The notes under the pieces were generated by a model, which saw only the letters and a list, made by a program, of their open reading frames with translations, had not been told where the DNA came from and ran no database searches. From a virus, in the IMG/VR virus record IMGVR_UViG_3300045919_000425, positions 1 through 33,198 of that record: a DNA stretch of 33,198 bases. One strand, written 5' to 3'. Positions 12,958-31,044 of this stretch are shown here, one piece after another. The position numbers and the translations under genes were made by a program. The number at the start of each line of letters is the position of its first letter. Position 1 is the stretch's first letter.

Positions 12958-13333
12958 TGTACTAGTTTATAGGGTTGAGGATAGGAACGGAATTGGTCCC
13001 TTTCAGTCTGAGCTTTTGGGTGAAAGTGCGTGCTTTCAATTACGATCCCACATGGGAGGTCTTCCGACACCTAGATCGGAAGGGTTTAGGCTGATACCTG
13101 ATTCATCCCTGTTTGATAATTTGATTTGCGGTTGCGGATCTTTGGAGGATCTCCAGTCTTGGATACCGTATGATGTAGTTGATGATTTGGATTCTTTGGG
13201 GTTTAGGTTGATTACTTACAGTATAGAATTTGATCCCTTAGCAATTGAGATAAAACAATCTCAAACTGTATTTAATAGGAATTTAGCTACAAAGGTTGGC
13301 TCTTCTCCAGTTTACGAGATCTACTCTTATTAG
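12950..13333 (+). CDS. Phage protein of the YRVEDxxGxGPF type
   Basis: A 127-residue protein from ATG 12950 (MPNVLVYRVEDRNGIGPF). From memory, phage and prophage proteins of this type share an opening Y+vEd..G.GPy, a Pro-rich loop (here LPTPRSEGF), and a block GCGSLEDLQSWIPYDVVDDL followed by LGFRLITYSI. The pattern fits well although no function is known. It has a GGGGG ribosome site overlapping the previous gene. The opening also resembles 6542 and 10412. Confidence 0.68.
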   Translation: MPNVLVYRVEDRNGIGPFQSELLGESACFQLRSHMGGLPTPRSEGFRLIPDSSLFDNLICGCGSLEDLQSWIPYDVVDDLDSLGFRLITYSIEFDPLAIEIKQSQTVFNRNLATKVGSSPVYEIYSY

Positions 13334-13341
13334 GAGGTTTT

Positions 13342-13572
13342 ATGAGAACTTACATTGACGCATTTGCGGTTTCCTATTCTGATACTTCTCAATCTGGCTT
13401 AACTGAGGTTTCCATCAAAACAAACGGTAAAGAGAGTCGTTCTTATTTTGATGACTTTAACGAGGCGGCGGAATATGCCTTATCCCTAGGCAGAACTTGT
13501 ATGTATGCGGTAGAACAATACATTGTCTCTGTGGAGACTACCCGGGAGCTTTTCAACCAACACTTAGGATAA
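13342..13572 (+). CDS. Unknown small protein
   Basis: A 76-residue protein, alternating strands and one helix (FDDFNEAAEYALSLGRT). The F.df.eA..yA pattern is again of the strands-then-helix kind found in families A and AP2. Spacing of 8 bases from the previous gene and a clear TTAGGAGGTTTT site. No known function. Confidence 0.62.
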   Translation: MRTYIDAFAVSYSDTSQSGLTEVSIKTNGKESRSYFDDFNEAAEYALSLGRTCMYAVEQYIVSVETTRELFNQHLG

Positions 13573-13582
13573 GGAGATTATT

Positions 13583-14026
13583 TTGAAGCTCATACATCTA
13601 TCTGCTAATAATTACAAATTTAAGGGTAGGATTGATTACAGGAATGTAAACGCTATTAGTGCTATTATTGGCGATGTTCTTTTGGAGAAGGTGAGTGCTC
13701 TTTATGATTTTAATGCCGTTTATGTGTCTACAACGATTACGGTTCAAGGGTTATCAAATACCACCATTACTAGAAAGATCTGCTTTGAAATCCAGAAAGC
13801 CCTTAAAGAGAAGTCAAATGTGCGTGTGTCTTTCGGTATCTTCAGTGAAAGCAGCTCTTTGACTGTTAGCTTGAAAGCTACTAAGCGCCTTGCTGATATG
13901 GCTCCGTCTAATTTACTACCTAGAAATAATGGGATTGTGAATGCTGATATAGTTCCTAGCACTTGGAATGAAGTAGCTAATGAGTGCGTTACGAACTATT
14001 ACGCTTCATTAGGGGTTTGTTTGTGA
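13583..14026 (+). CDS. Unknown 147-aa protein
   Basis: Uses TTG at 13583, placed 8 bases after AAGGAGA. The protein is mixed alpha/beta with a helical part (ICFEIQKALKEKSNVRV) and strands VRVSFGIF and SLTVSLK. Last gene of cassette 6, just before promoter 7. Not recognised. The minus-strand frame inside it is a shadow. Confidence 0.62.
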   Translation: MKLIHLSANNYKFKGRIDYRNVNAISAIIGDVLLEKVSALYDFNAVYVSTTITVQGLSNTTITRKICFEIQKALKEKSNVRVSFGIFSESSSLTVSLKATKRLADMAPSNLLPRNNGIVNADIVPSTWNEVANECVTNYYASLGVCL

Positions 14027-14050
14027 TTCGGTAAATAAGCGCTTAATCTC

Positions 14051-14079
14051 TTGACTTGTAGTTAACACTATGTTACTCT
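14051..14079 (+). promoter_or_regulatory. Cassette promoter 7 (diverged)
   Basis: TTGACT (14051-14056), 17 bp, TACTCT (14074-14079). The repeat reads CTTGACTTGTAGTTAAC, one outer base of the right arm changed. The leader is short and consists of two hairpins: GAAGC/GCTTC (14088-14103) at the 5' end and GAGAAC-CTTA-GTTCTC (14112-14127) just before the ribosome site. Confidence 0.75.
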
Positions 14080-14146
14080 TTTTATAGGAAGCAATGAAGC
14101 TTCAAAGAACAGAGAACCTTAGTTCTCAACAATTTAAGGAGAGAAC

Positions 14147-14380
14147 ATGCTAAGCGAATTAAAGACAGGCACACTAGTAGAGTTAGGCGATGGTTCTACT
14201 GCAATGATTATGCGTAAGAAGAAAAGCAAGAGTATGTTTAAAGATATCTTCCCTTGGGTTATTAGTTTCGTTAAAATGGGAGATACCAAAGTCCAGGTAA
14301 GGAGTTTGAAAGAAGACGGTAGCGCCTTTAAGCTAGCTAACGGATCATTTAGTGAATTCTCAATTGTGAAGGTAAAATAG
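14147..14380 (+). CDS. Small SH3-like basic protein
   Basis: A 77-residue protein, strand-rich (LKTGTLVELGDGSTAMIMRK, later TKVQVRSLKEDGSAFKL) with a lysine cluster RKKKSKSMFK. The KTGTLV start matches the small barrels at 5135 and 17141. Sits behind promoter 7. The next 120 bases hold no gene. Confidence 0.6.
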   Translation: MLSELKTGTLVELGDGSTAMIMRKKKSKSMFKDIFPWVISFVKMGDTKVQVRSLKEDGSAFKLANGSFSEFSIVKVK

Positions 14381-14502
14381 CAACTTCAAATCGAATTTGT
14401 CCCTAGTGTTAGTATCAACCAACGATTTACCTAGCCTTAAATCGCCCTAAAACGATTCATTGTACTTATTATTGATATTACTGTATAACTTTAGGAGATG
14501 GT

Positions 14503-14556
14503 ATGAAAATTAAGGAGATCGTCTTAAGTGAGAGATTTAAGGACTATCGATGTTAG
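14503..14556 (+). CDS. 17-residue leader peptide candidate
   Basis: ATG 14503 after TTTAGGAGATGGT opens MKIKEIVLSERFKDYRC and stops at TAG 14554-14556, overlapping the start of the next gene by 7 bases. The good ribosome site belongs to this peptide, so the following gene is probably translated by coupling. Confidence 0.45.
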   Translation: MKIKEIVLSERFKDYRC

Positions 14557-14768
14557 AAGATATTAAGGAGCAACTGGTAAGATCTGAATACGCCTTTGTT
14601 GATTCGAAGGATGTTCTTTGGTTGTTTTATCAAGACGGAACTATCAAGTACGAACTCGTTCGATTTCTTGAAGCCCGATTTGAGCATGAAGGGCTAACGA
14701 TAAGAAAAGCAAGGTTGCAGGGACTATCTGACAGATTCACGGTATGGATTTTATCAGTAGAGCCTTAA
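14550..14768 (+). CDS. Unknown small protein
   Basis: A 72-residue protein (MLEDIKEQLVRSEYAFVDSK). It contains WLFYQDGTIKYELV, which looks like the DG-hairpin motif of the minus-strand array, but here it is central and the helix block is missing, so kinship is doubtful. Its start lies within the preceding leader peptide. Confidence 0.58.
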   Translation: MLEDIKEQLVRSEYAFVDSKDVLWLFYQDGTIKYELVRFLEARFEHEGLTIRKARLQGLSDRFTVWILSVEP

Positions 14769-14778
14769 TGGAGGGATT

Positions 14779-14907
14779 ATGGAAGACTTAGAAATAGAAA
14801 CCTATGAAGACTATCTACCGCTGCATGTATCTGAAATGTTAGACGATTTTGAGGATCTCGATGACGATTTTGAGGATCTCGATGACGATTTTGAAGATGA
14901 CGAATAA
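14779..14907 (+). CDS. Very acidic 42-aa repeat protein
   Basis: ATG 14779 after GGAGGGATT encodes 42 residues, beginning MEDLEIETYEDYLPLHVSEM. It then has three copies of the unit DDFEDLD, coded by 21-bp tandem repeats from about 14836. It has almost no basic residues. Very acidic small phage proteins sometimes act as DNA mimics (Ocr, Arn are known cases), but this is shorter and only the charge supports the comparison. Copy number may vary by slippage. Confidence 0.6.
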   Translation: MEDLEIETYEDYLPLHVSEMLDDFEDLDDDFEDLDDDFEDDE

Positions 14908-14924
14908 CCTAGCAGGGAGATATT

Positions 14925-15200
14925 ATGACAAATGAATTAGCAGGTCTTATCTGGGGCATTCACGAGAACAATAAGGCGCAAAGTGCAGTCTTTACGGTCT
15001 GGCTTACTGAGGTGATTGATAAGCCTTCTTTCTATACGCTAACGTACGTAGACACTCAAGCTCTATATGAAAGGCCGTTCCTGTTGGTTGATTCTGCAAC
15101 AATTAAAGTTACTGTGTCGTCTGAGGACCTTTTACAATTTATTGACTCATGCACTGCCAAAGGTATTACATTGAATATTGAGCATAAAAAGAGTGTGTAG
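14925..15200 (+). CDS. Unknown small protein
   Basis: A 91-residue protein (MTNELAGLIWGIHENNKAQS), alpha then beta (SAVFTVWLTEV, FYTLTYVDT, TIKVTVSSEDLLQFIDSC). Ribosome site GGGAGATATT. It leads into a run of small membrane proteins. Function unknown. Confidence 0.62.
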   Translation: MTNELAGLIWGIHENNKAQSAVFTVWLTEVIDKPSFYTLTYVDTQALYERPFLLVDSATIKVTVSSEDLLQFIDSCTAKGITLNIEHKKSV

Positions 15201-15207
15201 GAGATTT

Positions 15208-15483
15208 ATGTTTGACTTTCTTATTATCCTGTCCCTGGTTTTAATGTCATTACCGTTATTTGAATTAATGTTAACCGTATTTGGTTGTTTTGTGGAGATA
15301 AGTCTAGGTCTTACGGTTTTCCTATTTGTTGCCGGGACAATAATGTTTATAACCACATGCACAGCCTACGAGGAACAACGAATCAAGCTAATTACTACAG
15401 AATGCACATTTAAGCAAGGTCATATTAAAAAGTTGCGCAATGATAATATTTGCTTATCAACTGATGGAAGGATACTCGAATAA
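15208..15483 (+). CDS. Small membrane protein
   Basis: A 91-residue protein starting MFDFLIILSLVLMSLPLFEL. I take ATG 15208 (after TAGGAGATTT) rather than an in-frame ATG inside the preceding gene. Two membrane segments are visible (residues 3-30 and 33-53), followed by a polar, partly basic tail. The stop overlaps the next start as TAATG. Confidence 0.68.
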   Translation: MFDFLIILSLVLMSLPLFELMLTVFGCFVEISLGLTVFLFVAGTIMFITTCTAYEEQRIKLITTECTFKQGHIKKLRNDNICLSTDGRILE

Positions 15484-15620
15484 TGCTTTACTGGTTAATC
15501 GTTTTAGTTTTAATTCCATTAACTGTTATTGTTGGTTGTGCAATTGGCTTTCTGTTTATCTGTTTTATTGCTGGCCTTATTCACCCAAAGAAGGAGATTA
15601 AACATGAAAACTCAAAATGA
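15483..15620 (+). CDS. Small membrane protein (45 aa)
   Basis: ATG 15483 overlaps the previous stop. The protein is MLYWLIVLVLIPLTVIVGC plus AIGFLFICFIAGL and a short basic tail: one long or two short membrane helices. The end overlaps the start of the next gene, whose ribosome site lies inside it. Confidence 0.6.
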   Translation: MLYWLIVLVLIPLTVIVGCAIGFLFICFIAGLIHPKKEIKHENSK

Positions 15621-15792
15621 TTTTAGTGGGTTAAATGAGTCCGAGATCCGGACTATTTCTATTGAGAGTGCGGAACGTTACTTGCGTTCAAAATACACCA
15701 ATGAACCACATTTACTTTATGCTGTCAAACCATTAACAAATAAAGATACCGCTCACTTAGAGCAAATCAACCAACGACTTAAGAAGGATTGA
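15604..15792 (+). CDS. Unknown small soluble protein
   Basis: A 62-residue protein starting MKTQNDFSGLNESEIRTIS. The ATG at 15604 follows AAGAAGGAGATTAAAC, which fixes the start; a longer frame reaching back to 15529 would duplicate the membrane gene in another frame. Helical, polar. Function unknown. Confidence 0.62.
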   Translation: MKTQNDFSGLNESEIRTISIESAERYLRSKYTNEPHLLYAVKPLTNKDTAHLEQINQRLKKD

Positions 15793-15873
15793 CAACTAGG
15801 AATTTTCTTGCTAGATTAGTTATAGGAGAATTTAAAGCTAGATTCTCTCATTAACCAATTTAAGGAGTTCTTC

Positions 15874-16401
15874 ATGAAAAACTTACTCGCTTCTTTGATA
15901 TGCCTTCTTCCAATAGCCGCACTTGCGACAACCTTATCACCTTCAGAGCTAAGAACAAGAGCGATCAACCAGATTCAAGGCCAAGCGACCGAAACGGGCT
16001 TTATCGCAAATATGTCTGAAGAAAACATCAAGGGCGTTATGGAGGCGATACAACCAACACCAATGAAACCTAAAGTGTATGGCGAGCTATCATGCGCCGC
16101 TTACGTAGTACGTAACAAGGTAGCAATCCCCATAGAAGGGCTGACGTTATCTGTAGATTTAGCTTCATTTGATAATGATGTTCAACGTAATGTAAGTTCT
16201 TTCGAGATTTACATGATCCACAAGTACAACTTAGGTAGCTCAAAAATTATTCATAAGACAGCACAGATAACAGCGACTCAAAGAAAAATACTAAAAACTA
16301 AGAACAAAGATATTTTCTTTATAGACTGGATCGCTCATGACTCCTCGGGCTATAAAGCGACCATGGTTTGCTACTGGTCAAAAAATAAACTCATAAAATA
16401 A
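15874..16401 (+). CDS. Secreted/periplasmic protein
   Basis: A 175-residue protein with a classical signal peptide: MKNLLASLICLLPIAALA with cleavage after ALA. The mature part has two Cys (ELSCAAYVV and MVCYWSKN) that may form a disulphide, and strands in between. The end KATMVCYWSKNKL resembles MKIQCTWTKNLQY of the secreted protein at 16851, so the two are likely paralogues. Periplasmic phage proteins often act in superinfection exclusion or envelope modification, which is only a possibility. It is preceded by TTTAAGGAGTTCTTC. Confidence 0.7.
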   Translation: MKNLLASLICLLPIAALATTLSPSELRTRAINQIQGQATETGFIANMSEENIKGVMEAIQPTPMKPKVYGELSCAAYVVRNKVAIPIEGLTLSVDLASFDNDVQRNVSSFEIYMIHKYNLGSSKIIHKTAQITATQRKILKTKNKDIFFIDWIAHDSSGYKATMVCYWSKNKLIK

Positions 16402-16413
16402 TTTCATAATCAC

Positions 16414-16442
16414 TTGACTTCTAGTTAAGACTCGTGTAGTAT
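16414..16442 (+). promoter_or_regulatory. Cassette promoter 8 with partial class A leader
   Basis: TTGACT (16414-16419), 17 bp, TAGTAT (16437-16442), with the perfect CTTGACTTCTAGTTAAG repeat. The roughly 110-nt leader contains GTGG-GTTAATCA-CCAC (16477-16492) followed by AAATAACACGA, very like leader 1 at 4052-4080. The rest of the class A core is missing. Confidence 0.83.
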
Positions 16443-16555
16443 ATAAACAGGGAGAAGAGAAGGGTAAAAGCCGAGTGGGTTAATCACCACAGTAAATAAC
16501 ACGATGGCTTCAAGCTTCAAGCCCCGAACCGATAATTAACTTTAAGGAGAGTCTC

Positions 16556-18655: not shown

Positions 18656-18970
18656 TCAGATTCTTTTTGGTCGATACTTTGGACGGTATAAGTTAATAAC
18701 CTTACCGTCGATATAAATAAGGGTTAGCTTGATAAGTGTTCCTGTAACGCCCGGATTACAAAGAAAAAGAGGCTCATGTGTCGATAGAACATTCTCGATC
18801 AGATAATTAACGATCTTATCACCCTTATCGCCTACTCTTCGTACAAGGCATGGCTGCTGTGTTTCTTCATTAAATATCTCAAAAATCTCATCTGTAAAAT
18901 CAAGCTGATAGAAAACGCAACATGGGATTCTACCATCGCAATCAATCTCTTCAAGACGGTACCAATTCAT
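18656..18970 (-). CDS. DG-hairpin family protein
   Basis: A 104-residue member. Aromatic start MNWYRLEEIDCD, helix block GDKIVNYLIENVLSTHEPLF, then KLTLIYIDGKVINLYRPKYR. The RPKYRP tail is shared with 21499 (LYHPNYK) and with the frameshifted copy at 21153 (WNPNYNPKK), making these three a subgroup. Confidence 0.72.
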   Translation of the reverse strand: MNWYRLEEIDCDGRIPCCVFYQLDFTDEIFEIFNEETQQPCLVRRVGDKGDKIVNYLIENVLSTHEPLFLCNPGVTGTLIKLTLIYIDGKVINLYRPKYRPKRI

Positions 18971-19008
18971 TCAAAGCCTCCTTTCTGTATTCCTTATCTG
19001 ACACTCCA

Positions 19009-19227
19009 TTACACAAACAAAGAATCATATGCTCTGCAAGTAAACCTTGTTAATAAACCAGCCGTCGTCGTTTGACGAAAAAGTCCTTCTTCTTTGTAGT
19101 GCTCGATATAGAGTTCATAATCTATGAGAGATCCTGGCCAATGCTGAAGAGGATAATTTCTATATAACTCGATAATCAGGTCACGAACTTCGCCCCAGTC
19201 AGATTCTCGCCACTCAGAATTACTCAT
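19009..19227 (-). CDS. Unknown small protein
   Basis: A 72-residue protein starting MSNSEWRESDWGEVRDLI. ATG 19227 follows AAGGAGGGCGTA, which decides the start over an in-frame ATG 45 bases upstream. It lacks the DG-hairpin motif, though the helix DLIIELYRNYPLQ is similar to the family helix. A sigma70-type promoter stands about 80 bp upstream. Confidence 0.62.
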   Translation of the reverse strand: MSNSEWRESDWGEVRDLIIELYRNYPLQHWPGSLIDYELYIEHYKEEGLFRQTTTAGLLTRFTCRAYDSLFV

Positions 19228-19304
19228 TACGCCCTCCTTAAGGTTTATTTGAAGTGTTATTGAATACTTCAACCAGTTAATTTCATATCACTATCCCCTA
19301 AATA

Positions 19305-19333
19305 ACTGTAGCATAGTTTTATCTATTTGTCAA
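19305..19333 (-). promoter_or_regulatory. Sigma70-type promoter inside the minus array
   Basis: On the minus strand TTGACA (19328-19333) and TACAGT (19305-19310) with exactly 17 bases between. It would drive 19227 and the genes down to the methyltransferase. The inverted repeat of the plus-strand cassettes is absent. Confidence 0.7.
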
Positions 19334-19611
19334 GTACCTAAATTCTTAAACAAACTCCTTATTGTTTTCACGGTGCCGTCTAAGTAAATAATAATTAAAG
19401 TCAAATCTGCTGATTCCTTCTTGAAGCAGAGAGTTTTATAGATCATAGATGACAAATAGCCATCTCCTTCTTCAATTATTTCATCCCTTTGGTTAGTTCT
19501 ACGGTAATAATCAAACACTTCGTCATATGTGGAAAACTCCCGAAAAATAAATTCAACCTGATTGGGTAGTCTCTCAGTAGGCTTATAGGTCCAAAGTGAA
19601 AATCTCTTCAT
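19330..19611 (-). CDS. DG-hairpin family protein
   Basis: A 93-residue member starting MKRFSLWTYKPTERLPNQ. ATG 19611 forms an ATGA overlap with the preceding stop; a GTG 12 bases upstream is less likely. Helix block GDGYLSSMIYKTLCFKKE, then LTLIIIYLDGTVKTIRSLF. Confidence 0.7.
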   Translation of the reverse strand: MKRFSLWTYKPTERLPNQVEFIFREFSTYDEVFDYYRRTNQRDEIIEEGDGYLSSMIYKTLCFKKESADLTLIIIYLDGTVKTIRSLFKNLGT

Positions 19612-20000
19612 TTGAAAAGCCACGAAAGGTCGCCCTTCACATAATCTCGCCTAAATCCACCAGAGATGACCTTTTCTATTTGATCCTTAAAAATAATCCG
19701 AATATTAAACTCCTCTGCCTTGTAGTCGATAAACCTATCAGAAATAAGGCTTTGAGATATAAATTCCGACAAAAGAAGGCTAAAATCATCGAATTCGAGA
19801 TTGTTCGCAATTAAGCCATCAACAGTCCTGGTTGTTAAATTTATATCCATCGTAAATTTAAGCTTTACATCAGGAAAGGATGAGATCACTGGCCGATGAT
19901 TACCTACAGGTACAGTGATCTCATCCTTGCAAACCTCATATATTCTTTGCTCAGTAAGAGAGCCGTCTAAATCCTCAAACACAAACACAGTGTTACTCAT
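19608..20000 (-). CDS. Unknown protein in the array, possibly diverged DG-hairpin member
   Basis: A 130-residue protein (MSNTVFVFEDLDGSLTEQRI). The block DFSLLLSEFISQSLISDRFI followed by FNIRIIFKDQIEKVISGGF has the same order of helix and strand-turn-strand, but the turn is KDQ instead of DG and extra residues follow. The N-terminal 60 residues are not like the others. Placed provisionally. Confidence 0.62.
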   Translation of the reverse strand: MSNTVFVFEDLDGSLTEQRIYEVCKDEITVPVGNHRPVISSFPDVKLKFTMDINLTTRTVDGLIANNLEFDDFSLLLSEFISQSLISDRFIDYKAEEFNIRIIFKDQIEKVISGGFRRDYVKGDLSWLFK

Positions 20001-20029
20001 TTAAATCTCCTAGCTTATTAGTCTTCTAA

Positions 20030-20349
20030 CTAAAGAACTTTTGTCGATCCGTCCATGTAGTGAATCTCTACTGGAGTTGTGCAGTCAATTGCAAAATTCT
20101 TGTACTGAGTAATTTCCCAATCTGCAAAAGGAGTCCGGGTTTTAATTGGCCCACAATTCGGTCCTTTTTTGTTTACCTTCATAACTACTTCCAAGTTTCC
20201 GTATTTGGCTGTTTTAATCTCAATGATTTTCTCCAATATGTTATCGTTTATTGCATAAGAAACGCAATCTGATCGGAGGTGGTTGGAGTATCACCTTCAA
20301 CATAAACAATTAATCCTGACTGCAATTCCTGAATAACACTAAAACTCAT
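20030..20349 (-). pseudogene. DG-hairpin family gene broken by a frameshift
   Basis: ATG 20349 (after AAAGGGAAACA) reads MSFSVIQELQSGLIVYVEGD, TPTTSDQIAF and stops at 20248. The neighbouring frame continues as SDCVSYAINDNILEKIIEIK through to VEIHYMDGSTKVL (stop at 20030). A -1 step around 20275 joins the halves into one normal member with helix block and C-terminal DG motif. The second half alone would need a TTG start without ribosome site. Confidence 0.6.
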
Positions 20350-20412
20350 TGTTTCCCTTTCTATGGATAGTTTTATCAATAACATTTATCCATATTTCTT
20401 GAATTATCTTCC

Positions 20413-20655
20413 TCAAAATATGGATAAATGCCTAATTGTGCCATCTAAATAAACTAGAGTTAAGTAAAGAGGACAACATTCTACCTTTGAGTCAATAACC
20501 TCTCCACCTCTTCCTATGACATATGTATATTTTTTAGTTAAGAATTCATTAAGTACATAGTCCATTTCTTCGTCATCTAGCCAAAGACTCGATTTATTAG
20601 TTTCTATGAAAGTTCTTACCTCTGACTCACGCTTAATTATCCACTTTCGAGACAT
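20413..20655 (-). CDS. DG-hairpin family protein (archetype)
   Basis: An 80-residue member, close to the family core: MSRKWIIKRESEVRTFIETN, helix DDEEMDYVLNEFLTKKYTYV, then CCPLYLTLVYLDGTIRHL at the very end. CPLYLxLxYLDG is shared nearly word for word with 21847, 22053 and 32688 and with the truncated copy at 20989. ATG after CAGGAGGTCTA. Confidence 0.75.
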   Translation of the reverse strand: MSRKWIIKRESEVRTFIETNKSSLWLDDEEMDYVLNEFLTKKYTYVIGRGGEVIDSKVECCPLYLTLVYLDGTIRHLSIF

Positions 20656-20678
20656 TAGACCTCCTGTTTATGTAATGC

Positions 20679-21005
20679 CTAAAACTCTATCACCTGAACG
20701 TCATAATCTGGATTAGACAAATCACAATTCCCGAACCTTTTAATCGAACCATCTTTGTATATAAATATTACCCCATAATGCAAGGGGTTTTCCAAAGCGA
20801 AAGAAAGAGAATCTGCAAGTATTGTGTTATCGGCGTAATAGGCCATTCTAAAATCACTGTAATCCACAAACTCTGGAAGTACGTCGAGTACTTTTTGTTT
20901 AACATCCCTAAGATTACCGTACTCTATATATAAGTGAATTGCAATATTAATATTGCAATATTGTGTGATCCTTCCAATCCAACTTTTATCATACTTCTTT
21001 ATCAA
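20679..21005 (-). CDS. DG-hairpin family protein
   Basis: A 108-residue member: MIKKYDKSWIGRITQYCN, helix block TILADSLSFALENPLHYG, then VIFIYKDGSIKRFGN and an extra tail LSNPDYDVQVIEF. Its start overlaps the end of a truncated family copy by 17 bases. Confidence 0.7.
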   Translation of the reverse strand: MIKKYDKSWIGRITQYCNINIAIHLYIEYGNLRDVKQKVLDVLPEFVDYSDFRMAYYADNTILADSLSFALENPLHYGVIFIYKDGSIKRFGNCDLSNPDYDVQVIEF

Positions 21006-21152
21006 ATTGGATCTCCTTTATTAGCCCGTCTAAGTATTGTATCTCTAAAAACAACGGGCAACAGCTTGCGAAATTACCTCCTGACTTGGTTGACTGAATA
21101 AGTTTACCTGAAATGAACTCTCATAGTCTCATACAATTTACTGTTATTTTTG
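20989..21152 (-). pseudogene. Truncated DG-hairpin family copy
   Basis: Only the C-terminal part is left: EFISGKLIQSTKSGGNFASC, then CPLFLEIQYLDGLIKEIQF, ending at 20989. Upstream an in-frame TGA follows MRL, and there is no start or room for the usual 40-50 N-terminal residues before the stop of the next copy at 21153. Probably the product of deletion between neighbouring repeats. Confidence 0.55.
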
Positions 21153-21432
21153 TTAAGGCTTCTTTGGATTGTAGTTTGGATTCCAAATCTCTTTAGCTTT
21201 CCCATCCAAGGGAACTAACTTAGTCATCTCAACCTTTATATAATTCCAACCAATAAAATTATTAGTAGGATCTACATTAAAGTACTTAACAGTGAAGCAA
21301 AAATGGGGTATTTGTTAAAGTCTCGTACAACTCTCTTTCCATCTCTTCTTTTAGGAGCATCCCCGAGAACCTCCCTGACTTAGCAGTCATCTCCCTTAAG
21401 TCTCCTTCCTCATCTGTTATCCAATGACTCAT
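21153..21432 (-). pseudogene. DG-hairpin family gene broken by a frameshift
   Basis: From ATG 21432 the frame reads MSHWITDEEGDLREMTAKSG, a helix ERELYETLTNTPF, and hits a stop. A +1 step in the run CCCCATTTTTG restores FTVKYFNVDPTNN, then VEMTKLVPLDGKAKEIWNPN to the stop at 21153. The restored protein belongs to the NPNY-tailed subgroup with 18656 and 21499. Confidence 0.6.
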
Positions 21433-21498
21433 CTTAATACCCCCCCTTTTTTTTAATATCTAATTAATGTCAAATATTTATCACGCAGTAGAGGGGGG

Positions 21499-21798
21499 TC
21501 AGTTCATTCTTTTGTAATTAGGGTGGTAAAGGTCTTTAATTAATCCATCTTTGTATTTTAATGTTAAATGAAGAATCGATATTACAACATATGCCTTAGT
21601 TTTAGTATCGAGTGATATTGGCACTTGCATGTAATGGAATATATTATTAATATCTTTATCGGATATTTTCTTGAAATGGTTACCTAAATCATGGTCAGAT
21701 TCTACCAGCTCTTCAACTTTTTCTCCGAAATAATTTCCCCCTATTATGCTGAGGGTTCCTACAACGAACGATGTAGTTCTTTTAACATACCAAGCCAT
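21499..21798 (-). CDS. DG-hairpin family protein
   Basis: A 99-residue member: MAWYVKRTTSFVVGTLSI, helix SDKDINNIFHYMQVPI, then ILHLTLKYKDGLIKDLYHPN and tail YKRMN. The ATG follows AAAGGAGAGATT. Confidence 0.72.
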   Translation of the reverse strand: MAWYVKRTTSFVVGTLSIIGGNYFGEKVEELVESDHDLGNHFKKISDKDINNIFHYMQVPISLDTKTKAYVVISILHLTLKYKDGLIKDLYHPNYKRMN

Positions 21799-21846
21799 AA
21801 TCTCTCCTTTCTTATAAGTTTTTCGATAAACTTTCTTTTAATCTAT

Positions 21847-22056
21847 TTAAATCAGGCTAAGCTCTTTTACTGTTCCGTCTTTATAGGATAATTTAAGATA
21901 TAAAGGGCATGAGTTTATGTGCTCTATGGTCTTGTTAAAAAACCGTGAAATCCAAATATCTACATACTCGGAAATTACTGTGGTTCGGGAGAGACTTATA
22001 CATTCATAAAAGCAAAGATCTATGGAACCACATTCCTTATACCAGACACAGTTCAT
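21847..22056 (-). CDS. DG-hairpin family protein
   Basis: A 69-residue member, among the shortest: MNCVWYKECGSIDLCFYECI, helix YVDIWISRFFNKTIEHI, SCPLYLKLSYKDGTVKEL. The start overlaps the previous stop by 4 bases. Confidence 0.72.
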   Translation of the reverse strand: MNCVWYKECGSIDLCFYECISLSRTTVISEYVDIWISRFFNKTIEHINSCPLYLKLSYKDGTVKELSLI

Positions 22057-22343
22057 AATATGCCCTCAACTATTGATAGGTTCTTAATAGTTTCGTCCAA
22101 ATAGTGAACCTCTATAAAAAGCGGACAGAATTCTACTGTATTCCCGTTCCTATCTTCATATATCAATCGGAGTTTTTTGGCATAAAGTGTTTCGATCATA
22201 AACGACACACTTTGATTAGACACTTGATTCCAATTCGAATACCTGTTTTCTTCGTCAAACCTACCATCAGGAATTACCGATGAAGACTCCTTTAATATGA
22301 ATCTTGGGTAATTCATTAAATGATCTGTATTATAAAACCACAC
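22053..22343 (-). CDS. DG-hairpin family protein (DE variant)
   Basis: A 96-residue member: MWFYNTDHLMNYPRFILKES, helix NQSVSFMIETLYAKKLRLI, then FCPLFIEVHYLDETIKNLSI. The turn Gly is Glu, an unusual change at the best conserved position. ATG after AAGGAGAAGTATGT. Confidence 0.7.
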   Translation of the reverse strand: MWFYNTDHLMNYPRFILKESSSVIPDGRFDEENRYSNWNQVSNQSVSFMIETLYAKKLRLIYEDRNGNTVEFCPLFIEVHYLDETIKNLSIVEGIL

Positions 22344-22353
22344 ATACTTCTCC

Positions 22354-22590
22354 TTAAATCTTAGTAATGTATTTTACGTTCCCACACTGGAAATGCAAAT
22401 ACATTTCCATCCATTTGTTTGCACCAAAAGGTTCTAATTCTGCTGGCTCTTCTCTACCGATTAAGACCGCAGAAATAAGATGATTTACCTCACTTTCTGA
22501 CACTTTCAATAATTTACGAGTTACTTTGGTTTCATCATTGAACTCATAGCACTGAAAACTTCTTTTCCATCCTAATTCTATAAACCACAT
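22354..22590 (-). CDS. DG-hairpin family protein (CG variant)
   Basis: A 78-residue member starting MWFIELGWKRSFQCYEF. ATG 22590 after AGAAGGTTTAGTT is preferred to an upstream in-frame start that lies in the 22593 gene. Helix SESEVNHLISAVLIGREEPA, then MEMYLHFQCGNVKYITKI, where the turn Asp is Cys. Confidence 0.68.
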   Translation of the reverse strand: MWFIELGWKRSFQCYEFNDETKVTRKLLKVSESEVNHLISAVLIGREEPAELEPFGANKWMEMYLHFQCGNVKYITKI

Positions 22591-22592
22591 AA

Positions 22593-22754
22593 CTAAACCT
22601 TCTTTCTTTTTGCTATAAACCTCCTGTAACACTCATAATCCTCCTCACTTAGAAGGTTTAACTGGTCTAATGTAATATTAGACCAGAACTTAATTAACTC
22701 CTTCTTCTTTTCTGGCTTTTTAACTTCAACAAGTACCTTTCGTTTCGATTTCAT
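22593..22754 (-). CDS. Small basic protein (53 aa)
   Basis: ATG 22754 after CTGGAGGAACC encodes MKSKRKVLVEVKKPEKKKEL and a helical remainder (ITLDQLNLLSEEDYECYRRF) with a lysine-rich end. It is the first gene after the internal promoter at 22770-22798 and stops 3 bases before the next gene. No motif known. Confidence 0.65.
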   Translation of the reverse strand: MKSKRKVLVEVKKPEKKKELIKFWSNITLDQLNLLSEEDYECYRRFIAKRKKV

Positions 22755-22769
22755 GGTTCCTCCAGAATA

Positions 22770-22798
22770 AATGTATCATACATATTCAAATAAGTCAA
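22770..22798 (-). promoter_or_regulatory. Sigma70-type promoter inside the minus array
   Basis: On the minus strand TTGACT (22793-22798), 17 bases, TACATT (22770-22775). It lies only 15 bases upstream of the 22754 start, so the leader is minimal, and overlaps the end of the upstream gene. Confidence 0.65.
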
Positions 22799-23097
22799 AA
22801 GGGTGAGAAGTACATATCTCCATAATTCGAGTATGGTCTACCTTCTCTGTTATCTATCTTCACAACTCTTCCGTCTTCATAGTAAATAGTGAAAAAATTT
22901 AATGCGCCAAATCTATTAGAAATAACTTCTGATATTAAACTTGATAACGTATCGGAAGAGTAAACATTACCAGATTTGCGAAACTTATCCGGTCTTGGGC
23001 AACTATCATTTTCAATGAAAATCACATTAACCCCTCGAACCTTATTCGAATTTTCCCTAAATCTTCGATAGTACAACCTATAGTAATTCTTTTTCAT
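22795..23097 (-). CDS. DG-hairpin family protein
   Basis: A 100-residue basic member: MKKNYYRLYYRRFRENSNKV, helix SSDTLSSLISEVISNRFGAL, then NFFTIYYEDGRVVKID and a 17-residue tail. Note the unusual Tyr/Arg-rich start. Confidence 0.7.
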   Translation of the reverse strand: MKKNYYRLYYRRFRENSNKVRGVNVIFIENDSCPRPDKFRKSGNVYSSDTLSSLISEVISNRFGALNFFTIYYEDGRVVKIDNREGRPYSNYGDMYFSPF

Positions 23098-23102
23098 TGT
23101 TA

Positions 23103-23435
23103 TTACCTTACATTAAAGAATTTACGGGCATCTTCCTCTTTTGCATAGTAAAGAGACTCCAGATATCCATCACAGATGAATTCTACTACAACACTCCCTG
23201 ACCAGTGAAGTATTAGGTTTGCGGTGTTTTCAGAAACATTCTCAATCATAACTCTTTGTCCGTCCTCGTACGTTATGGATATAGGTTTTCTATAGCCCTC
23301 AAGAACAGTGACTATGACTCGTTGCATGCTATCTTGATGTAATCTATTACTCCAATCAATTAAGGCATCAGCGGTATTTGAATTCTTTTCGATAAAATGA
23401 ACTCCGCCTAATGTTGGATAGAAGTATTTAGCCAT
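23103..23435 (-). CDS. DG-hairpin family protein with two hairpins
   Basis: A 110-residue member: helix block HQDSMQRVIVTVLEGYRKPI, ISITYEDGQRVMIENV, then a second strand-turn-strand VVVEFICDGYLESLYY. It looks like a partial duplication of the C-terminal motif. It overlaps the frameshifted gene 23428 by 8 bases. Confidence 0.7.
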   Translation of the reverse strand: MAKYFYPTLGGVHFIEKNSNTADALIDWSNRLHQDSMQRVIVTVLEGYRKPISITYEDGQRVMIENVSENTANLILHWSGSVVVEFICDGYLESLYYAKEEDARKFFNVR

Positions 23436-23690
23436 GAGACCTAATCTCCTTCACTAAACCATCCGCATAATAAATGAGGGCTGTGTCCTTTGTTGAGCAT
23501 AAAATCAGAGAAATTTTTCGAGAAATAGATATTTCATTGTCCAGTGAGACATTGATGGATAACTCTTCTCTGCCTATTTTAAGTACTTTCTCGGCCAAAA
23601 CACTTGCCTCCGCCTCCCATCTTTCAACTGTATGAATAAGAAATCATACCCACCCAAAAGGTTGTACTTTTTCCAAGAAAACCAACGCAT
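23428..23690 (-). pseudogene. DG-hairpin family gene broken by a frameshift
   Basis: ATG 23690 reads MRWFSWKKYNLLGGYDFLF and then runs to an early stop. A -1 step around 23640 restores IHTVERWEAEASVLAEKVLK, a strand region and TALIYYADGLVKEIRSHG, ending at 23428 with the usual overlap into the next gene. The restored form is a full member of about 87 residues. Confidence 0.6.
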
Positions 23691-23691
23691 A

Positions 23692-24024
23692 CTATCTCCT
23701 GTGTATTGTGATTTCGTTGTCCTCTGAAATAACCGTAATCGGGAAAATCCTATCTTCGCAAATCATCTCATCAATTCTCTGTTTAGTGAAATATCCACCA
23801 AAAATCTTTGCAGTTTGGTCATCAAAGGTTCTTAATTTACTTAGCGCCTCTTCTTTTGTCTGTGCGGCGATGAAAATATCCCCATACGGAATCCCCAAAT
23901 TCAATCTAGCTTTAAAGTACTTAATTTCATCTATCACTTGCAGTCTCTTCATTGTCGGTTTAAATCTCTCGTAAGACTCCTTAATCATATTACGAAGCTC
24001 ACTGATCGTTGGTTTTGTTTTCAT
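23692..24024 (-). CDS. Diverged DG-hairpin family protein
   Basis: A 110-residue protein starting MKTKPTISELRNMIKESYER; ATG 24024 overlaps the previous stop as ATGA. The end FPITVISEDNEITIHRR keeps the strand-turn-strand with EDN at the turn. A second region IFIAAQTKEEALSKLRTFDD is not in other members. Family membership is probable but not certain. Confidence 0.62.
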   Translation of the reverse strand: MKTKPTISELRNMIKESYERFKPTMKRLQVIDEIKYFKARLNLGIPYGDIFIAAQTKEEALSKLRTFDDQTAKIFGGYFTKQRIDEMICEDRIFPITVISEDNEITIHRR

Positions 24025-24395
24025 ACATCTCTCCATATTCCGTCTAAATATAATAATGAGAATCTACTTCCACTCATCAAAGATTGCCTAATCTCGTCAC
24101 TTGTGCTCAAAACAACCTTTGAGCACCTATACTCCGACTTAACATCATCTATGGATAAAATGAAACGAAAGACTTGCCCACCGTAGGAAGAATCTTGATC
24201 GTATTCACAATTAATACCTACTCCTTTTAAGAGTGGGATTACTTCCTCAGCCGCCGTTATAATGATTATTGCTGATGTTTCAATGAATAAATAATTGGAC
24301 GAGAGTCTTTTATACCTTGCTAATAGGTCTTTATTTCTAGCAAGCTTCTTATTTATCATTATTGAGCGCTGCTCAAGCACTAACCATCGACTCAT
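24021..24395 (-). CDS. DG-hairpin family protein
   Basis: A 124-residue member: MSRWLVLEQRSIMINKKLAR, a hydrophobic strand or short helix LFIETSAIIIITAAEEVIPL, helix STSDEIRQSLMSGSRF, and end SLLYLDGIWRDV. The stop overlaps the next gene. Confidence 0.7.
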   Translation of the reverse strand: MSRWLVLEQRSIMINKKLARNKDLLARYKRLSSNYLFIETSAIIIITAAEEVIPLLKGVGINCEYDQDSSYGGQVFRFILSIDDVKSEYRCSKVVLSTSDEIRQSLMSGSRFSLLYLDGIWRDV

Positions 24396-24664
24396 AGATT
24401 AATCTCCCTGATTACTCCATTTAAAAACCCAAGAACCAGCACTGAATCTTTATTAAATTTAAAGAAGTTGTGCTTGGATATATTACCTCTCTCGTCAAAA
24501 TGAAGGATAAATTCACGTCCAACTAGTGCATTCTCTGTAATAATTTCCATCTGCTCTTCTGAGCGTATACAGTATTTTTCTCCACATGGGAGGTTGGATT
24601 CTTTACTCATCTCATTGAAGACGTATTTAGATTCCGACTCGAACATACACACCCAATAGCTCAT
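24392..24664 (-). CDS. DG-hairpin family protein (NG variant)
   Basis: A 90-residue member starting MSYWVCMFESESKYVFNEMS. ATG 24664 follows AAAGGAGCGAGG. Helix SEEQMEIITENALVGREFIL, then SVLVLGFLNGVIREINL as the last residues. Confidence 0.7.
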   Translation of the reverse strand: MSYWVCMFESESKYVFNEMSKESNLPCGEKYCIRSEEQMEIITENALVGREFILHFDERGNISKHNFFKFNKDSVLVLGFLNGVIREINL

Positions 24665-24738
24665 CCTCGCTCCTTTAACCATGCTCGCTTAACAGTTCTT
24701 CCACTAAGATTGTTTTTATCAGATATTAAAGTGAATAT

Positions 24739-25080
24739 TTACCTGCGTTTATCAGATTTTTTACCAGAACACTTAGTTTTAGGTGGTTTAGTGCTCTTAT
24801 CTGTTTCATTTTCGATAATCCTTACTATTCCATCAAGATATTTAACGTTTATTTTCTTTAATTTATGGATTTTATCCTCAGCCCGGCTTGGAAGAGTTCT
24901 CAAGCCTGTGATTATCTTAAAATCCACGCCAGATATTACTGCCAGAATTAGCAAACTGAACGCCTGGTCAGAAAATACAGATTCCTTAAGGTCAAACTCA
25001 CAAATACTTAACCCTTCTCCGATATAACGTGTTATTTCATACCAATCTATGAAATTATGAGTCTTAAAACTTCTAGCCAT
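24739..25080 (-). CDS. DG-hairpin family protein with basic tail
   Basis: A 113-residue member: MARSFKTHNFIDWYEITRYI, helix SDQAFSLLILAVISGVDFKI, then KINVKYLDGIVRIIEN followed by a strongly basic tail (TDKSTKPPKTKCSGKKSDK). The tail may bind nucleic acid or be disordered. The start overlaps the previous stop by one base (TGATG). Confidence 0.7.
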   Translation of the reverse strand: MARSFKTHNFIDWYEITRYIGEGLSICEFDLKESVFSDQAFSLLILAVISGVDFKIITGLRTLPSRAEDKIHKLKKINVKYLDGIVRIIENETDKSTKPPKTKCSGKKSDKRR

Positions 25081-25397
25081 CAGTTTTCCTCACAATTCTT
25101 GATGTTCTCTTTTGATTCTTCGACTAATTTTGTAAAAATAGTGCCCTGTAAGTACTTCCTGCGGTAGCATTGATATTTTTCACACCTATGAACAGGTGAA
25201 GTTATTGGAACTAATACCTTACCGACTAATACGAATGAATGATTGTAATGATCTATGACCGTATTTTCACATACATTCACTAATTCCGTAAAGAGTTCAC
25301 CTTTTTTATGTGGTCGAATAAGGATCGGTATTAAGAAAATCGCCAATAAGAAAGCCAATACTAGGTATATTACAAGTTTCGGGGAAGTGGGACTCAT
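25080..25397 (-). CDS. Small membrane protein in the array
   Basis: A 105-residue protein with one N-terminal membrane segment (LVIYLVLAFLLAIFLIPILI, residues 8-27) and a mostly soluble rest with four Cys (VNVCENT, RCEKYQCYR, KNCEE). No DG motif. It shares the operon and the overlapping ends with its neighbours. Confidence 0.66.
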   Translation of the reverse strand: MSPTSPKLVIYLVLAFLLAIFLIPILIRPHKKGELFTELVNVCENTVIDHYNHSFVLVGKVLVPITSPVHRCEKYQCYRRKYLQGTIFTKLVEESKENIKNCEEN

Positions 25398-25702
25398 TTA
25401 ACCCTCCCTATAAAGCTGTTGATATCTTCTTTTGTTAATTCTTCGCCAGATATTTTGATCTCCGAACCATCACTAAACATAATTGAATGTGACTTATCTG
25501 CACAGATCTCGTGTAAAATGACACAATGTAAGGTTTCTGGTATTTTTGACCAATGCTCATACGACCCAGTTCCATTTAGAAACCCCAATCTATGTTGGAT
25601 ACTGTTATTTACAAGATCGCCTTCGCTTATGTGACTGAATAGCTCTTTTATACTGTAAAGATTACCCGCAACAAAGGTGAATTCCGTTCGCTTGATCATC
25701 AT
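25394..25702 (-). CDS. Diverged DG-hairpin family protein
   Basis: A 102-residue protein (MMIKRTEFTFVAGNLYSIKE). The strand-turn-strand HSIMFSDGSEIKISGEELT fits the motif but is followed by about 16 more residues. The central part LHCVILHEICADK may correspond to the CPL strand. Moderate support. Confidence 0.64.
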   Translation of the reverse strand: MMIKRTEFTFVAGNLYSIKELFSHISEGDLVNNSIQHRLGFLNGTGSYEHWSKIPETLHCVILHEICADKSHSIMFSDGSEIKISGEELTKEDINSFIGRVK

Positions 25703-26500: not shown

Positions 26501-26731
26501 CTAATATCCTCGCATTTCCCTTTCAAGCTCTGCCCGAATTTCGGAGTCTAGCTCCATACGACGCTGTTCTTGAAGGTATTCATTTTCTTGATCTTCTAAA
26601 AGTGCTGACTGCTCCCAAACTTCATACATTGCAGATTCCACTGCTTGAAGCTCCTCTTCTGTATGGTCAATACCTAGTCCTAATAATATTTCTTCCCGTT
26701 TCTCATTCAGCTTAGATAATTCGTTTTGCAT
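26501..26731 (-). CDS. Acidic coiled-coil protein, first gene of the minus array
   Basis: A 76-residue, highly charged helical protein (MQNELSKLNEKREEILLGLG, later LEDQENEYLQEQRRMELDSE), probably a coiled coil. It follows the promoter at 26749-26777 with ribosome site CGGAGGGTGT. Function unknown. Confidence 0.68.
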   Translation of the reverse strand: MQNELSKLNEKREEILLGLGIDHTEEELQAVESAMYEVWEQSALLEDQENEYLQEQRRMELDSEIRAELEREMRGY

Positions 26732-26748: not shown

Positions 26749-26777
26749 AATCTATCATACCCTTAACAGTCTGTCAA
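26749..26777 (-). promoter_or_regulatory. Sigma70-type promoter for the minus array
   Basis: On the minus strand TTGACA (26772-26777), 17 bases, TAGATT (26749-26754). It stands about 20 bases upstream of the first array gene and diverges from the tail-fibre gene, whose own promoter I cannot see. Confidence 0.72.
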
Positions 26778-26822: not shown

Positions 26823-27731
26823 ATGAGTGGTACGACTAGTATTGGTATGATCTTACCCTATGCAGGGGACATCCGGCAGGGATTTTTACCAAGAGGGTTT
26901 CTGTTTTGCGACGGTTCGGCTATTTCAAGGAGTCAGTATTCTGATCTATTTGATGTGATCGGAGTTTCATTTGGAGTAGGAGATGGAGTCTCCACCTTTA
27001 AACTACCTGATTTTAGGGGTAGATTTATTAGAGGTGTAGATAACGCATCTGGTCACGATCCAGATGCTTCCAGGAGGGTTTCTATGGCATCTGGTGGCAA
27101 TCCTGGAGATAACGTAGGATCTATCCAAACCGATGAAATACTATCTCACACTCACTTTGGGAATGTCTCTGGTGTACCGCAAGCCAATGCGACCACTATG
27201 TGTGCTCAAGCTGGTGGACTTGATATTGGGGATATATTTGCGCTGCGTATGTCTTATTCTGGTGGTGCTGAAACTAGGCCAAAAAATGCGGCAGCTCATT
27301 TTATTATTAAATACACAGAAATATCACCAGTTTCACTTAACATAACAAAGACGGACTTTTCCTCCCAATCTTTTGTGCCCAATACTCGCATACCTTTAAG
27401 TTGGGATTCATATGATTCGATCTATGACCCATATAAAATGAAGATGGCTGATAAAACCGCATTATTTCTCCCAACACAAGGAGAATATGATATTTCCAGC
27501 TCGTGCTTATTTGATGGCTCATTGTCTGGGATTAAGAATGTGACAATTTCCGTGCTTATTAATGGCCGGATACTTCAGGAAAATACAATCTCAGGAGTTT
27601 CTTCTTTAGTTTGTTGCAGTTCGTCACTGAATTCTGGAGATTTTGTTGAAATACGGATAACACAAGACGGGAAACTCCTGGCCCCACTAATTTTCGCTTC
27701 AATAAGTATTAAGCTGGCCAGAGTTTATTGA
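26823..27731 (+). CDS. Tail-collar fibre protein with C-terminal jelly-roll-like domain
   Basis: A 302-residue virion protein. Residues 1-110 are a phage tail collar domain (PF07484 type): MILPYAGD, GFLFCDGSAISRSQYSDLF, FKLPDFRGRFIRGVD, then SHTHFGN and the closing FIIKYTEI near 160-170. Residues 175-302 are beta-rich with SWDSYDSIYDPYKM, LPTQGEYDISSSCLFDG, TISVLINGRIL and IFASISIKLARV, a C1q/TNF-like pattern that often forms receptor-binding trimers in phage fibres. Role: distal tail fibre or adaptor at the host surface. Confidence 0.85.
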   Translation: MSGTTSIGMILPYAGDIRQGFLPRGFLFCDGSAISRSQYSDLFDVIGVSFGVGDGVSTFKLPDFRGRFIRGVDNASGHDPDASRRVSMASGGNPGDNVGSIQTDEILSHTHFGNVSGVPQANATTMCAQAGGLDIGDIFALRMSYSGGAETRPKNAAAHFIIKYTEISPVSLNITKTDFSSQSFVPNTRIPLSWDSYDSIYDPYKMKMADKTALFLPTQGEYDISSSCLFDGSLSGIKNVTISVLINGRILQENTISGVSSLVCCSSSLNSGDFVEIRITQDGKLLAPLIFASISIKLARVY

Positions 27732-29475: not shown

Positions 29476-31044
29476 TCAGACAACAGAGAGTTTATCACTA
29501 TCATTCTTGATGCAAATTAAATTAACGGTTCTATCTGCTAGGATCTCCGTTAAATCTACATACATATCGGTAACATACACTACCGATATTAACTTATTTG
29601 GTGGCAGATCTAAATCTTCCCGAATTTGCTTGATTTGTGCTGAACCCAAATCAGTTCCTCCACCTCCAACCAGGGCTACCTTGGAAGCCATTACGGCTGC
29701 GGGATCTACTCGCCGAAGTTCCACATCACAACAGTACATTGCTGATAAATGTCCTGCCTTCATCAGACTGTTCGCAACAGAAAAACTCATACTCAATGTT
29801 TCTTCATCAAACATAGAACCTGAAGTGTCCAAGACTAAAATAATAGCCGGCCTGTAATTTTGTGCTGAAAACCTTTCAGTAGGGACAAAGAATGAATTTC
29901 TGGATCTAATAACCCTCCAAGACAATTCACTTTTAGGCTTAGATGACAAAACCTTCACTGCATTTCGAATTTTCATTAAGAGAGCTGTAATGTACTGAGG
30001 CGCATATTTTTCTTTTACGAAAATTTCTGCATCTGCTGCACCCTTTCCAGGAGAACCTTTTGTTAGATCTCTCCCTACCACCTTAGCCTGGCGCATGGCC
30101 TTTTCTGTTCTTTTCTTTCTAGACTCCTTGGAATTATCACCATCGTCACAATCCATATCATGATCATCAAGCCCGTTTTCTCCAACTTGATCGAGCTTAT
30201 CCTTCATTCTCCGAAATGCTATGCTCGATAAAATAGGCCAACTCGTATCCGGTCGCACTTCTTGAATAGAGATGTCGTTTGGATCTATAGGGAATAATTC
30301 ATCAAAACCTGCTACCGTGCAATATGAAGTGAAAGGAGTCCCACTGATCGATTTCTCCCTCTCTCCTTCTAATCTTAGTAACTCTTTCTCCGTGGAGCTA
30401 ATTTTATCGCTCAGCAGATTTGCCTCTGAGGAATCTACTGTTGAGCTTAATATCTCATTAAGCTTGATTAACGTTAACTTTAACTCCTTGATAGCTTCTT
30501 CTAACGTGTATCGAGAAATTTCATACGCCCCTGCCTGGATTTCTTCCATCTGAAGAATATCTGAATGTAAGGCCATATCCATACAGATATTCAGAATTCT
30601 ATGCGCTGAAGAGCCTTTTATTTTCCCAGTTTTTTCATCTTCCAGCATTTTAGCTAGATCTGAATCAAGCTCTCTGTTGGAAGTTTGGTCTCTTTGATAA
30701 GCCTGGGGGATATGCCTTAGTTCGTGTAAGATTAAGAAGCATACTGCCCGTGCTGAACCCTTAAATGGAAATCCTGGATTGATTTCTATTGTTTTTTCAA
30801 AAAAATTTTCAGATGGCCGTTCTGTTTCCGGCATAAAAGTTTCGATGATATCTTTACGGATCGAAACTTTTATATCCTTAGTAATGGTTATAGAAGCTAA
30901 CGCCCGTGCTTTTGATGGGAATTCCCATATATCAACCACTGAAGCTAACGCTTGGGTGTAATACATCTGTTTTTGACGTAAGTACGAGTACAATGTAGAT
31001 CTAGCTAGGTGATACTTCTCTTCCGTAGACAATTCTCTCTTCAT
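29476..31044 (-). CDS. VWA-domain protein with N-terminal metallopeptidase-like domain (DUF2201 type)
   Basis: A 522-residue protein. The N-terminal domain has HELRH (107-111) in LILHELRHIPQAY, an HExxH zinc motif, with a helical region after it (ILNICMDMALHSDI). Middle: coiled coil (residues 185-232) and an acidic stretch DDHDMDCDDGD. The C-terminal VWA domain carries a full MIDAS: DTSGS (406-410), Thr464 in GGGGTDLG and Asp493 in VTDMY. This is the known partner type of MoxR ATPases, encoded next door. In such pairs the ATPase is thought to remodel metal-linked complexes; the phage role is unknown. Confidence 0.85.
   Translation of the reverse strand: MKRELSTEEKYHLARSTLYSYLRQKQMYYTQALASVVDIWEFPSKARALASITITKDIKVSIRKDIIETFMPETERPSENFFEKTIEINPGFPFKGSARAVCFLILHELRHIPQAYQRDQTSNRELDSDLAKMLEDEKTGKIKGSSAHRILNICMDMALHSDILQMEEIQAGAYEISRYTLEEAIKELKLTLIKLNEILSSTVDSSEANLLSDKISSTEKELLRLEGEREKSISGTPFTSYCTVAGFDELFPIDPNDISIQEVRPDTSWPILSSIAFRRMKDKLDQVGENGLDDHDMDCDDGDNSKESRKKRTEKAMRQAKVVGRDLTKGSPGKGAADAEIFVKEKYAPQYITALLMKIRNAVKVLSSKPKSELSWRVIRSRNSFFVPTERFSAQNYRPAIILVLDTSGSMFDEETLSMSFSVANSLMKAGHLSAMYCCDVELRRVDPAAVMASKVALVGGGGTDLGSAQIKQIREDLDLPPNKLISVVYVTDMYVDLTEILADRTVNLICIKNDSDKLSVV

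Follow-up and report, generated by a model that had tools for sequence, protein, structure and literature searches.

Early regions of phage genomes are known stores of unrelated small ORFans (open reading frames, ORFs, without homologues). The closest published parallel in organisation to the locus described here is the host-takeover module of phage SPO1, whose genes are early and of which several inhibit growth (PMC6873191). Our locus is an array of 23 intact small ORFs on the minus strand at positions 18656-25702 of IMG/VR virus record IMGVR_UViG_3300045919_000425, and lies within the stretch that was analysed (the window), which comprises bases 1-33198 of the 158,938-base record. The SPO1 module and the array alike consist of clustered, mostly small genes whose operons have strong promoters and ribosome-binding sites (RBS), and most of these genes lack a recognised domain. 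Early expression and growth inhibition are experimental findings for the SPO1 genes, whereas the promoter type of the array is read from its sequence. The two also differ in composition: most of the SPO1 takeover genes are not known to be related to one another, and the array is made up for the most part by a single family of small proteins, here called the DG-hairpin family after its C-terminal turn.

Two further systems offer partial parallels. Bacillus phage 0305phi8-36 has three paralogue families, a-c, consisting of small domains that recur in several genes and are absent from relatives (PMC2147016). The array likewise repeats a small domain within one phage and not in its relatives, but families a-c are fewer and belong to virion proteins of a structural module, whereas the array is a non-structural operon. 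The early ORFans of Pseudomonas phage LUZ24, among them the MvaT inhibitor gp4, are small genes without homologues, as in the array, and act on host proteins (PMC4635203); they are single unrelated genes and form no duplicated family.

Results

The original prediction, made by reading the sequence, assigned almost every gene of the array, about 20 in all, to one family. The small ORFs are confirmed; they are mostly preceded by an RBS, and adjacent ORFs overlap by 1-40 nucleotides (nt), with overlapping stop and start codons, or are separated by short gaps. An all-against-all phmmer comparison of the called genes of the phage joins five of them at E<1e-3 (20413, 21847, 22053, 32688 and 88639, each named by its first coordinate). 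Leave-one-out profiles, each made from 14 members of a set of 15, regain the omitted one at E<0.01 in 10 of the 15 cases, against 0 of 90 (best 0.013) for six sets of random same-sized small genes of the same phage. When each gene is compared with 300 shuffles of itself, core members being scored by a profile that lacks them, 12 of the 23 intact array ORFs outscore all of their own shuffles, two are marginal and two are weak (Table 1); the remaining seven (19009, 19608, 20248, 22593, 23692, 25080 and 25705) are unsupported. The family is real, with common ancestry of its members, and accounts for about 12-16 of the 23 intact array ORFs. The predicted family is thereby borne out, and the predicted count was too high.

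Members have in common an N-terminal aromatic residue, a helix and a terminal strand-DG-turn-strand. A regular expression for the C-terminal hairpin matches 11 of the 23 array ORFs, where shuffled sequences lead one to expect 0.34 matches and give 3 at most, and matches 5 of 114 other small genes of the phage, two of which are themselves family members. Tryptophan is found within residues 2-14 in 12 of 21 members and in 12 of 116 other small genes (P=6e-6). These counts uphold the hairpin and the aromatic N terminus of the original prediction; its helix block, of the form S(D/E)..., coincides with a modelled helix, but as a motif it is loose, and a strict helix-plus-hairpin expression fits only 2 of the 23 array ORFs. 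Pairwise identities among members of about 12-37% agree with a family that is old or fast evolving, as had been proposed.

The family proteins are 56-124 residues long and have the hydropathy of soluble proteins, with no strongly hydrophobic member, and their calculated isoelectric points (pI) extend from 4.1 to 9.5. AlphaFold predicts the same order of strands (E) and helix (H), E-E-H-E-E-E-E, for 24392 (mean predicted local distance difference test score, pLDDT, 64) and for 20413 (pLDDT 77.5; predicted template modelling score, pTM, 0.63), an agreement of low to moderate confidence between models that are not fully independent, as their underlying alignments overlap. In the models the S(D/E)... 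segment forms the helix, and the DG hairpin is made by the two final strands. Foldseek returned no match at E<0.05 in PDB for either model or in BFVD for the 24392 model; matches to photosystem I PsaD and to a splicing endonuclease were rejected at template modelling scores (TM) below 0.4.

Copies of the family also occur outside the array and in broken form. The original prediction missed the two frame-broken copies that lie within the array (21159-21432 and 20992-21120), as well as those at other places in the genome. When every reading frame of the record is searched with the profile, non-seed places emerge at 20992-21120, 65585-65722 and 88579-88893 with E of 1e-5 or better. The intact genes 154761-155054, 155051-155380, 157366-157704 and 14550-14768 score above all 300 of their shuffles, and 73996-74274 is a weak member (2/300 shuffles). 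In all, the phage carries about 22 copies, good and broken, with 14-18 of them in the array. Member 88639-88896 is overlapped at its end by 88869-89111 (+), a small protein that by eye resembles a ribbon-helix-helix regulator and has no Pfam match. Member 32688 is followed downstream by 32310-32645, an AAA-type ATPase gene (31074-32282) and 29476-31044. This ATPase is MoxR-like, with AAA_5 just under the Pfam cut-off, and within 29476-32282 (-) it adjoins a protein that by eye is VWA/metallopeptidase-like (DTSGSM motif; no Pfam match).

Frame is lost in copy 21159-21432 at a run of five T; the remainder, which ends KLVPLDGKAKEIWNPNYNPKKP, has a coding score in the shifted frame, and the copy read through scores 9.9 bits against the family profile, as high as 1 of 500 shuffles. 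Both of the neighbouring copies at 65585-66170 shift frame, and in one this happens twice. Read across their breaks, or as a headless fragment, the broken copies score 9.9-26 bits, and one alone is reached by a single shuffle of 500. A coding scan of the coding strand found no other clear frame break outside the family, barring stretch boundaries and ordinary overlapping genes, and the 67 genes of at least 200 amino acids (aa) contain 107 runs of five or more T and 227 of five or more A, all uninterrupted. Because frame breaks are seen only in family copies and the homopolymer runs of long genes are unbroken, the sequence fits a reading of the broken copies as decaying genes and of the family as undergoing gene turnover. 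Sequencing error is unlikely to have broken the frames, since long genes contain hundreds of intact homopolymer runs of equal length, though this falls short of proof, as further short genes with broken frames might have escaped the coding scan. Programmed frameshifting was set aside in favour of decay because in one copy the frame would have to shift twice, in opposite directions.

The promoter TTGAC-N14..16-TGnTAnnnT is found throughout the phage, with 31 sites in the record against 1.25 expected from shuffling, and in most cases a start codon follows after 15-60 nt. Its extended -10 element is strongly conserved, and the spacer often contains AGTTAA. Three copies serve the array operon, in keeping with the predicted single operon with internal promoters. 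Along the coding strand from 26731 to 18073 there is no intrinsic terminator of note, the single weak candidate being at 19078-19062. Early or middle expression of the operon is likely, because the motif is of the host sigma70 type and the annotated genes behind it are mainly non-structural, such as the RNA ligase/kinase gene 97325.

Table 1. Promoters, family members and broken copies located in the window. Shuffles, number of shuffled versions of the gene scoring as high; LOO, leave-one-out profile.
Feature	Position	Strand	Description	Support
Promoter	26749-26777	(-)	TTGACA-N17-TAGATT, extended TG; 17 nt before first operon gene 26501-26731	
Possible member, marginal	25394-25702	(-)	102 aa; MFSDGSEIKI hairpin seen	3/300 shuffles
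Member, well supported	24739-25080	(-)	113 aa, basic, pI 9.5	LOO E=0.0058; 0/300 shuffles, LOO
Probable member, marginal	24392-24682	(-)	96 aa; internal ATG 24664 gives MSYW...	3/300 shuffles, LOO; AlphaFold model
Weak member	24021-24395	(-)	124 aa, C-terminal end SLLYLDGIWRDV	Hairpin motif; 23/300 shuffles, LOO
Member, well supported	23428-23598	(-)	56 aa, short N terminus	0/300 shuffles, LOO
Divergent member, well supported	23103-23435	(-)	110 aa	Non-seed; 0/300 shuffles
Member, well supported	22795-23097	(-)	100 aa, basic, pI 9.5	0/300 shuffles, LOO
Internal promoter	22770-22798	(-)	TTGACT-N17-TACATT (TG), before 22593-22754	
Member, well supported	22354-22632	(-)	92 aa; true start probably ATG 22590 (MWFIELGW...)	Non-seed; 0/300 shuffles
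Member, well supported	22053-22343	(-)	96 aa, CPLF...YLDE	LOO E=2.1e-5; 0/300 shuffles
Member, well supported	21847-22056	(-)	69 aa, CPLYLKLSYKDGTVKEL	LOO E=2.4e-7; 0/300 shuffles
Member, well supported	21499-21798	(-)	99 aa	LOO E=1.6e-5; 0/300 shuffles
Frame-broken copy	21159-21432	(-)	Intact N terminus 21286-21432 (MSHW...); C terminus KLVPLDGKAKEIWNPNY in other frame	
Frame-broken or headless copy	20992-21120	(-)	CCPLFLEIQYLDGLIKEI, without in-frame start codon	E=1e-7, non-seed; 26.1 bits, 0/500 shuffles
Weak member	20679-21005	(-)	108 aa, VIFIYKDGSIKRF	Hairpin motif; 12/300 shuffles, LOO
Member, well supported	20413-20655	(-)	80 aa, best-modelled	LOO E=2.8e-8; 0/300 shuffles; AlphaFold
Member, well supported	20030-20236	(-)	68 aa, TTG start, RBS not clear	0/300 shuffles, LOO
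Member, well supported	19330-19623	(-)	97 aa, alternative ATG 19611	LOO E=3.3e-6; 0/300 shuffles
Internal promoter	19305-19333	(-)	TTGACA-N17-TACAGT (TG), before 19009-19272	
Member, well supported	18656-18970	(-)	104 aa	LOO E=0.0029; 0/300 shuffles
Member outside array	32688-32978	(-)	96 aa, very acidic, pI 4.1	LOO E=8.5e-6; 0/300 shuffles
Probable dispersed member	14550-14768	(+)	72 aa, VLWLFYQDGTIK	Non-seed; 0/300 shuffles

Searches of Pfam, NCBIfam, PHROG and PDB sequences gave no significant match to the family, the best E being 0.0071, with single members and different families each time. The domain, which the original prediction did not recognise, is matched by no domain library in any member. 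Neither of the two outcomes that the original prediction named as refuting it was obtained: the members were not assigned to separate known families, and the two structure models agree in secondary-structure order. Homology to SPO1-like takeover genes was not found, either in PHROG or by tblastn of three members against phages, which gave nothing significant, and megablast of the array against phages gave no match. The whole record of Myxococcus phage Mx1 and 30 polymerase-related IMG/VR contigs contain no family member, whereas the same kind of search recovers 18 places in the record of the present phage. Several candidate relatives were rejected: six loci carrying the pattern CPL[YF]-x5-YxDG in viral contigs were all attributed to chance, as was one 12-residue match to a Firmicute-type prophage gene from a single-member search, and none of 20 stretches matched by an alignment of three close members was confirmed. 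The ATPase 31074-32282 and a 729-aa ATPase, used as baits, brought up no relatives. Among the contigs and phages searched, no phage but this one is so far known to carry the family; strongly diverged relatives could have escaped these searches, given how dissimilar the members of this single genome already are.

The ends of the record share a 188-nt direct terminal repeat (1-188 and 158751-158938; 187/188 identical, one mismatch). The record is on this ground essentially complete, and the copy numbers given here are therefore those of the whole phage. The phage is of myovirus type, and its genes include those for a portal protein, a wedge protein of the baseplate and an RNA ligase of T4 type. 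Mx1, of similar genome size, is the nearest named relative by polymerase and portal: DNA polymerase III alpha is closest to that of Mx1 (31% identity), and the portal is most like that of Mx1 (25% identical), followed by distant similarity to SPO1-like (Herelleviridae) phages. There is no close relative among IMG/VR polymerase matches, the best reaching about 31%, in a search that may not have covered records very near the window.

Several other features of the record were noted. Second and third small paralogous families, interleaved with each other, occupy 6168-6530, 9112-9471 and 10101-10412 (+), and 4153-4440 and 7292-7600 (+); their proteins end TVGQSNNEEITNLLRRLVNPKAKWV or ...FKSYNHAMRVIKAHLSK. 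The phage thus expands more than one small-gene family. A promoter/leader block of about 75-87 nt, TTGACTTMTAGTTAAGATTAGGATAGTAT..., recurs in eight copies on the plus strand over 3789-16469 of the window (at 3789, 5315, 5905, 7022, 8527, 12557, 14032 and 16395), with copies at 7039 and 8544 identical over 87 nt, and looks like a duplicated promoter cassette before small genes. Two tandem 85-nt units, ACTAGTACATTAGTAC-like, lie at 3226-3395, where no gene is called. The 546-aa protein encoded at 62153-63793 (-) has an N terminus that resembles a GroEL-type chaperonin but no Pfam match at 1e-3, and is possibly very diverged. After the polymerase gene, 109504-110971 (-) combines a splicing-like end motif, ENGTVAHNCS, with an endonuclease-like reading frame and, read by eye, is probably an intein or homing element.

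Discussion

We propose that one ancestral gene was repeatedly duplicated to give a lineage-specific family of small soluble proteins, probably expressed early. The copies would have diverged strongly, and some would have been lost by frameshift in a process of birth and death. A common scaffold of N-terminal aromatic strand, helix and C-terminal strand-DG-turn-strand would have been kept, with loops, N terminus and surface charge free to vary. Each copy would bind a different host protein and inhibit or redirect it during takeover of the cell, and defence proteins might be among the targets. The computation shows the common ancestry, the operon with its promoters, and the extra and broken copies; the early timing is inferred from the promoter type, and host-protein binding and a benefit to the phage are likewise inferences. 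In role the family would be comparable to the SPO1 takeover module, but with a single scaffold as its basis. A host-takeover or anti-defence role, suggested in the original prediction, would fit the early-type promoters, the small soluble proteins with their very different charges, and the frequent decay.

We put the probability that the array supplies binding proteins for a variety of host targets at about even. It is the best explanation because it accounts for many diverged copies of one scaffold, their varied charge, the early-type promoters and the visible gain and loss of copies. Three observations weigh against it. No homologue of known function was found, by sequence or by fold, in the libraries searched. 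Some copies adjoin phage enzymes, 32688 lying in the gene string of the AAA ATPase and 73996 after an SbcC/RecF-like ATPase, an arrangement that would also suit partners of phage proteins. The frequent loss of copies, moreover, suggests that single copies are dispensable.

Counter-defence, in which each protein would neutralise a single anti-phage system or that system's signal, making the array an anti-defence island, is possible but doubtful as a separate account. Promoters of early type and copies that are quickly gained and lost, as seen here, would be expected from an arms race. Known anti-defence islands, however, hold unrelated genes and not one family; PADLOC models gave no significant match (best E 0.031, in 1 of 15 members), and there is no likeness to a solved inhibitor. 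At this locus counter-defence amounts to a special case of host-protein binding and could not be told apart from it.

It is unlikely that the family proteins serve enzymes of the phage itself as adaptors or regulators, for instance the AAA ATPase, the SbcC/RecF-like ATPase or products of DNA-metabolism genes. This is nevertheless the most useful alternative, because 32688 shares a gene string with the ATPase 31074-32282, the weak member 73996 comes directly after the SbcC/RecF-like gene 74278-76257, and the idea is open to direct test. The copies far outnumber the candidate enzymes, though, and most are clustered with no enzyme between them.

The copies might also be largely neutral, as members of a duplicating family that persist by chance and have little present function; at least four broken copies and the low identity would agree with this reading, which is nonetheless improbable. 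Most copies retain open frames, RBS, an in-frame coding signal and the hairpin at very low identity, for which selection is needed. A role as minor virion or ejected proteins that share a virion-anchoring domain is about as improbable: small paralogous virion domains are on record in families a-c of Bacillus phage 0305phi8-36 (PMC2147016) and a tail-collar protein gene (26823-27731) adjoins the operon, but the collar gene is on the opposite strand, the promoter class of the array stands mainly before non-structural genes, and the portal and baseplate genes are far off, so that promoter class and position make this role less likely. That unrelated proteins came to resemble each other through small beta-hairpins, by chance or convergence, is hardly credible, for although strand-DG-strand is a common turn and 20679 and 24021 are recognised by the hairpin alone, the leave-one-out and shuffle controls, the pairwise phmmer matches and the shared N-terminal tryptophan all speak for a family.

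A tentative extension, which we regard as possible though less likely than not, is that the phage makes its own repertoire, with duplication and decay continually making and discarding binding surfaces and one operon supplying about 20 binders for different host proteins. Such a repertoire may be comparable, by analogy, to the expanded effector families of pathogens.

Most of one early-type region can be traced to a single ancestor, and intact, diverged and dying copies stand together in one essentially complete genome. Some 20 "hypothetical proteins" become one testable family. Should its members bind host proteins, one scaffold would open the way to a large number of targets in the host, and from the broken copies one could read which pressures come and go.

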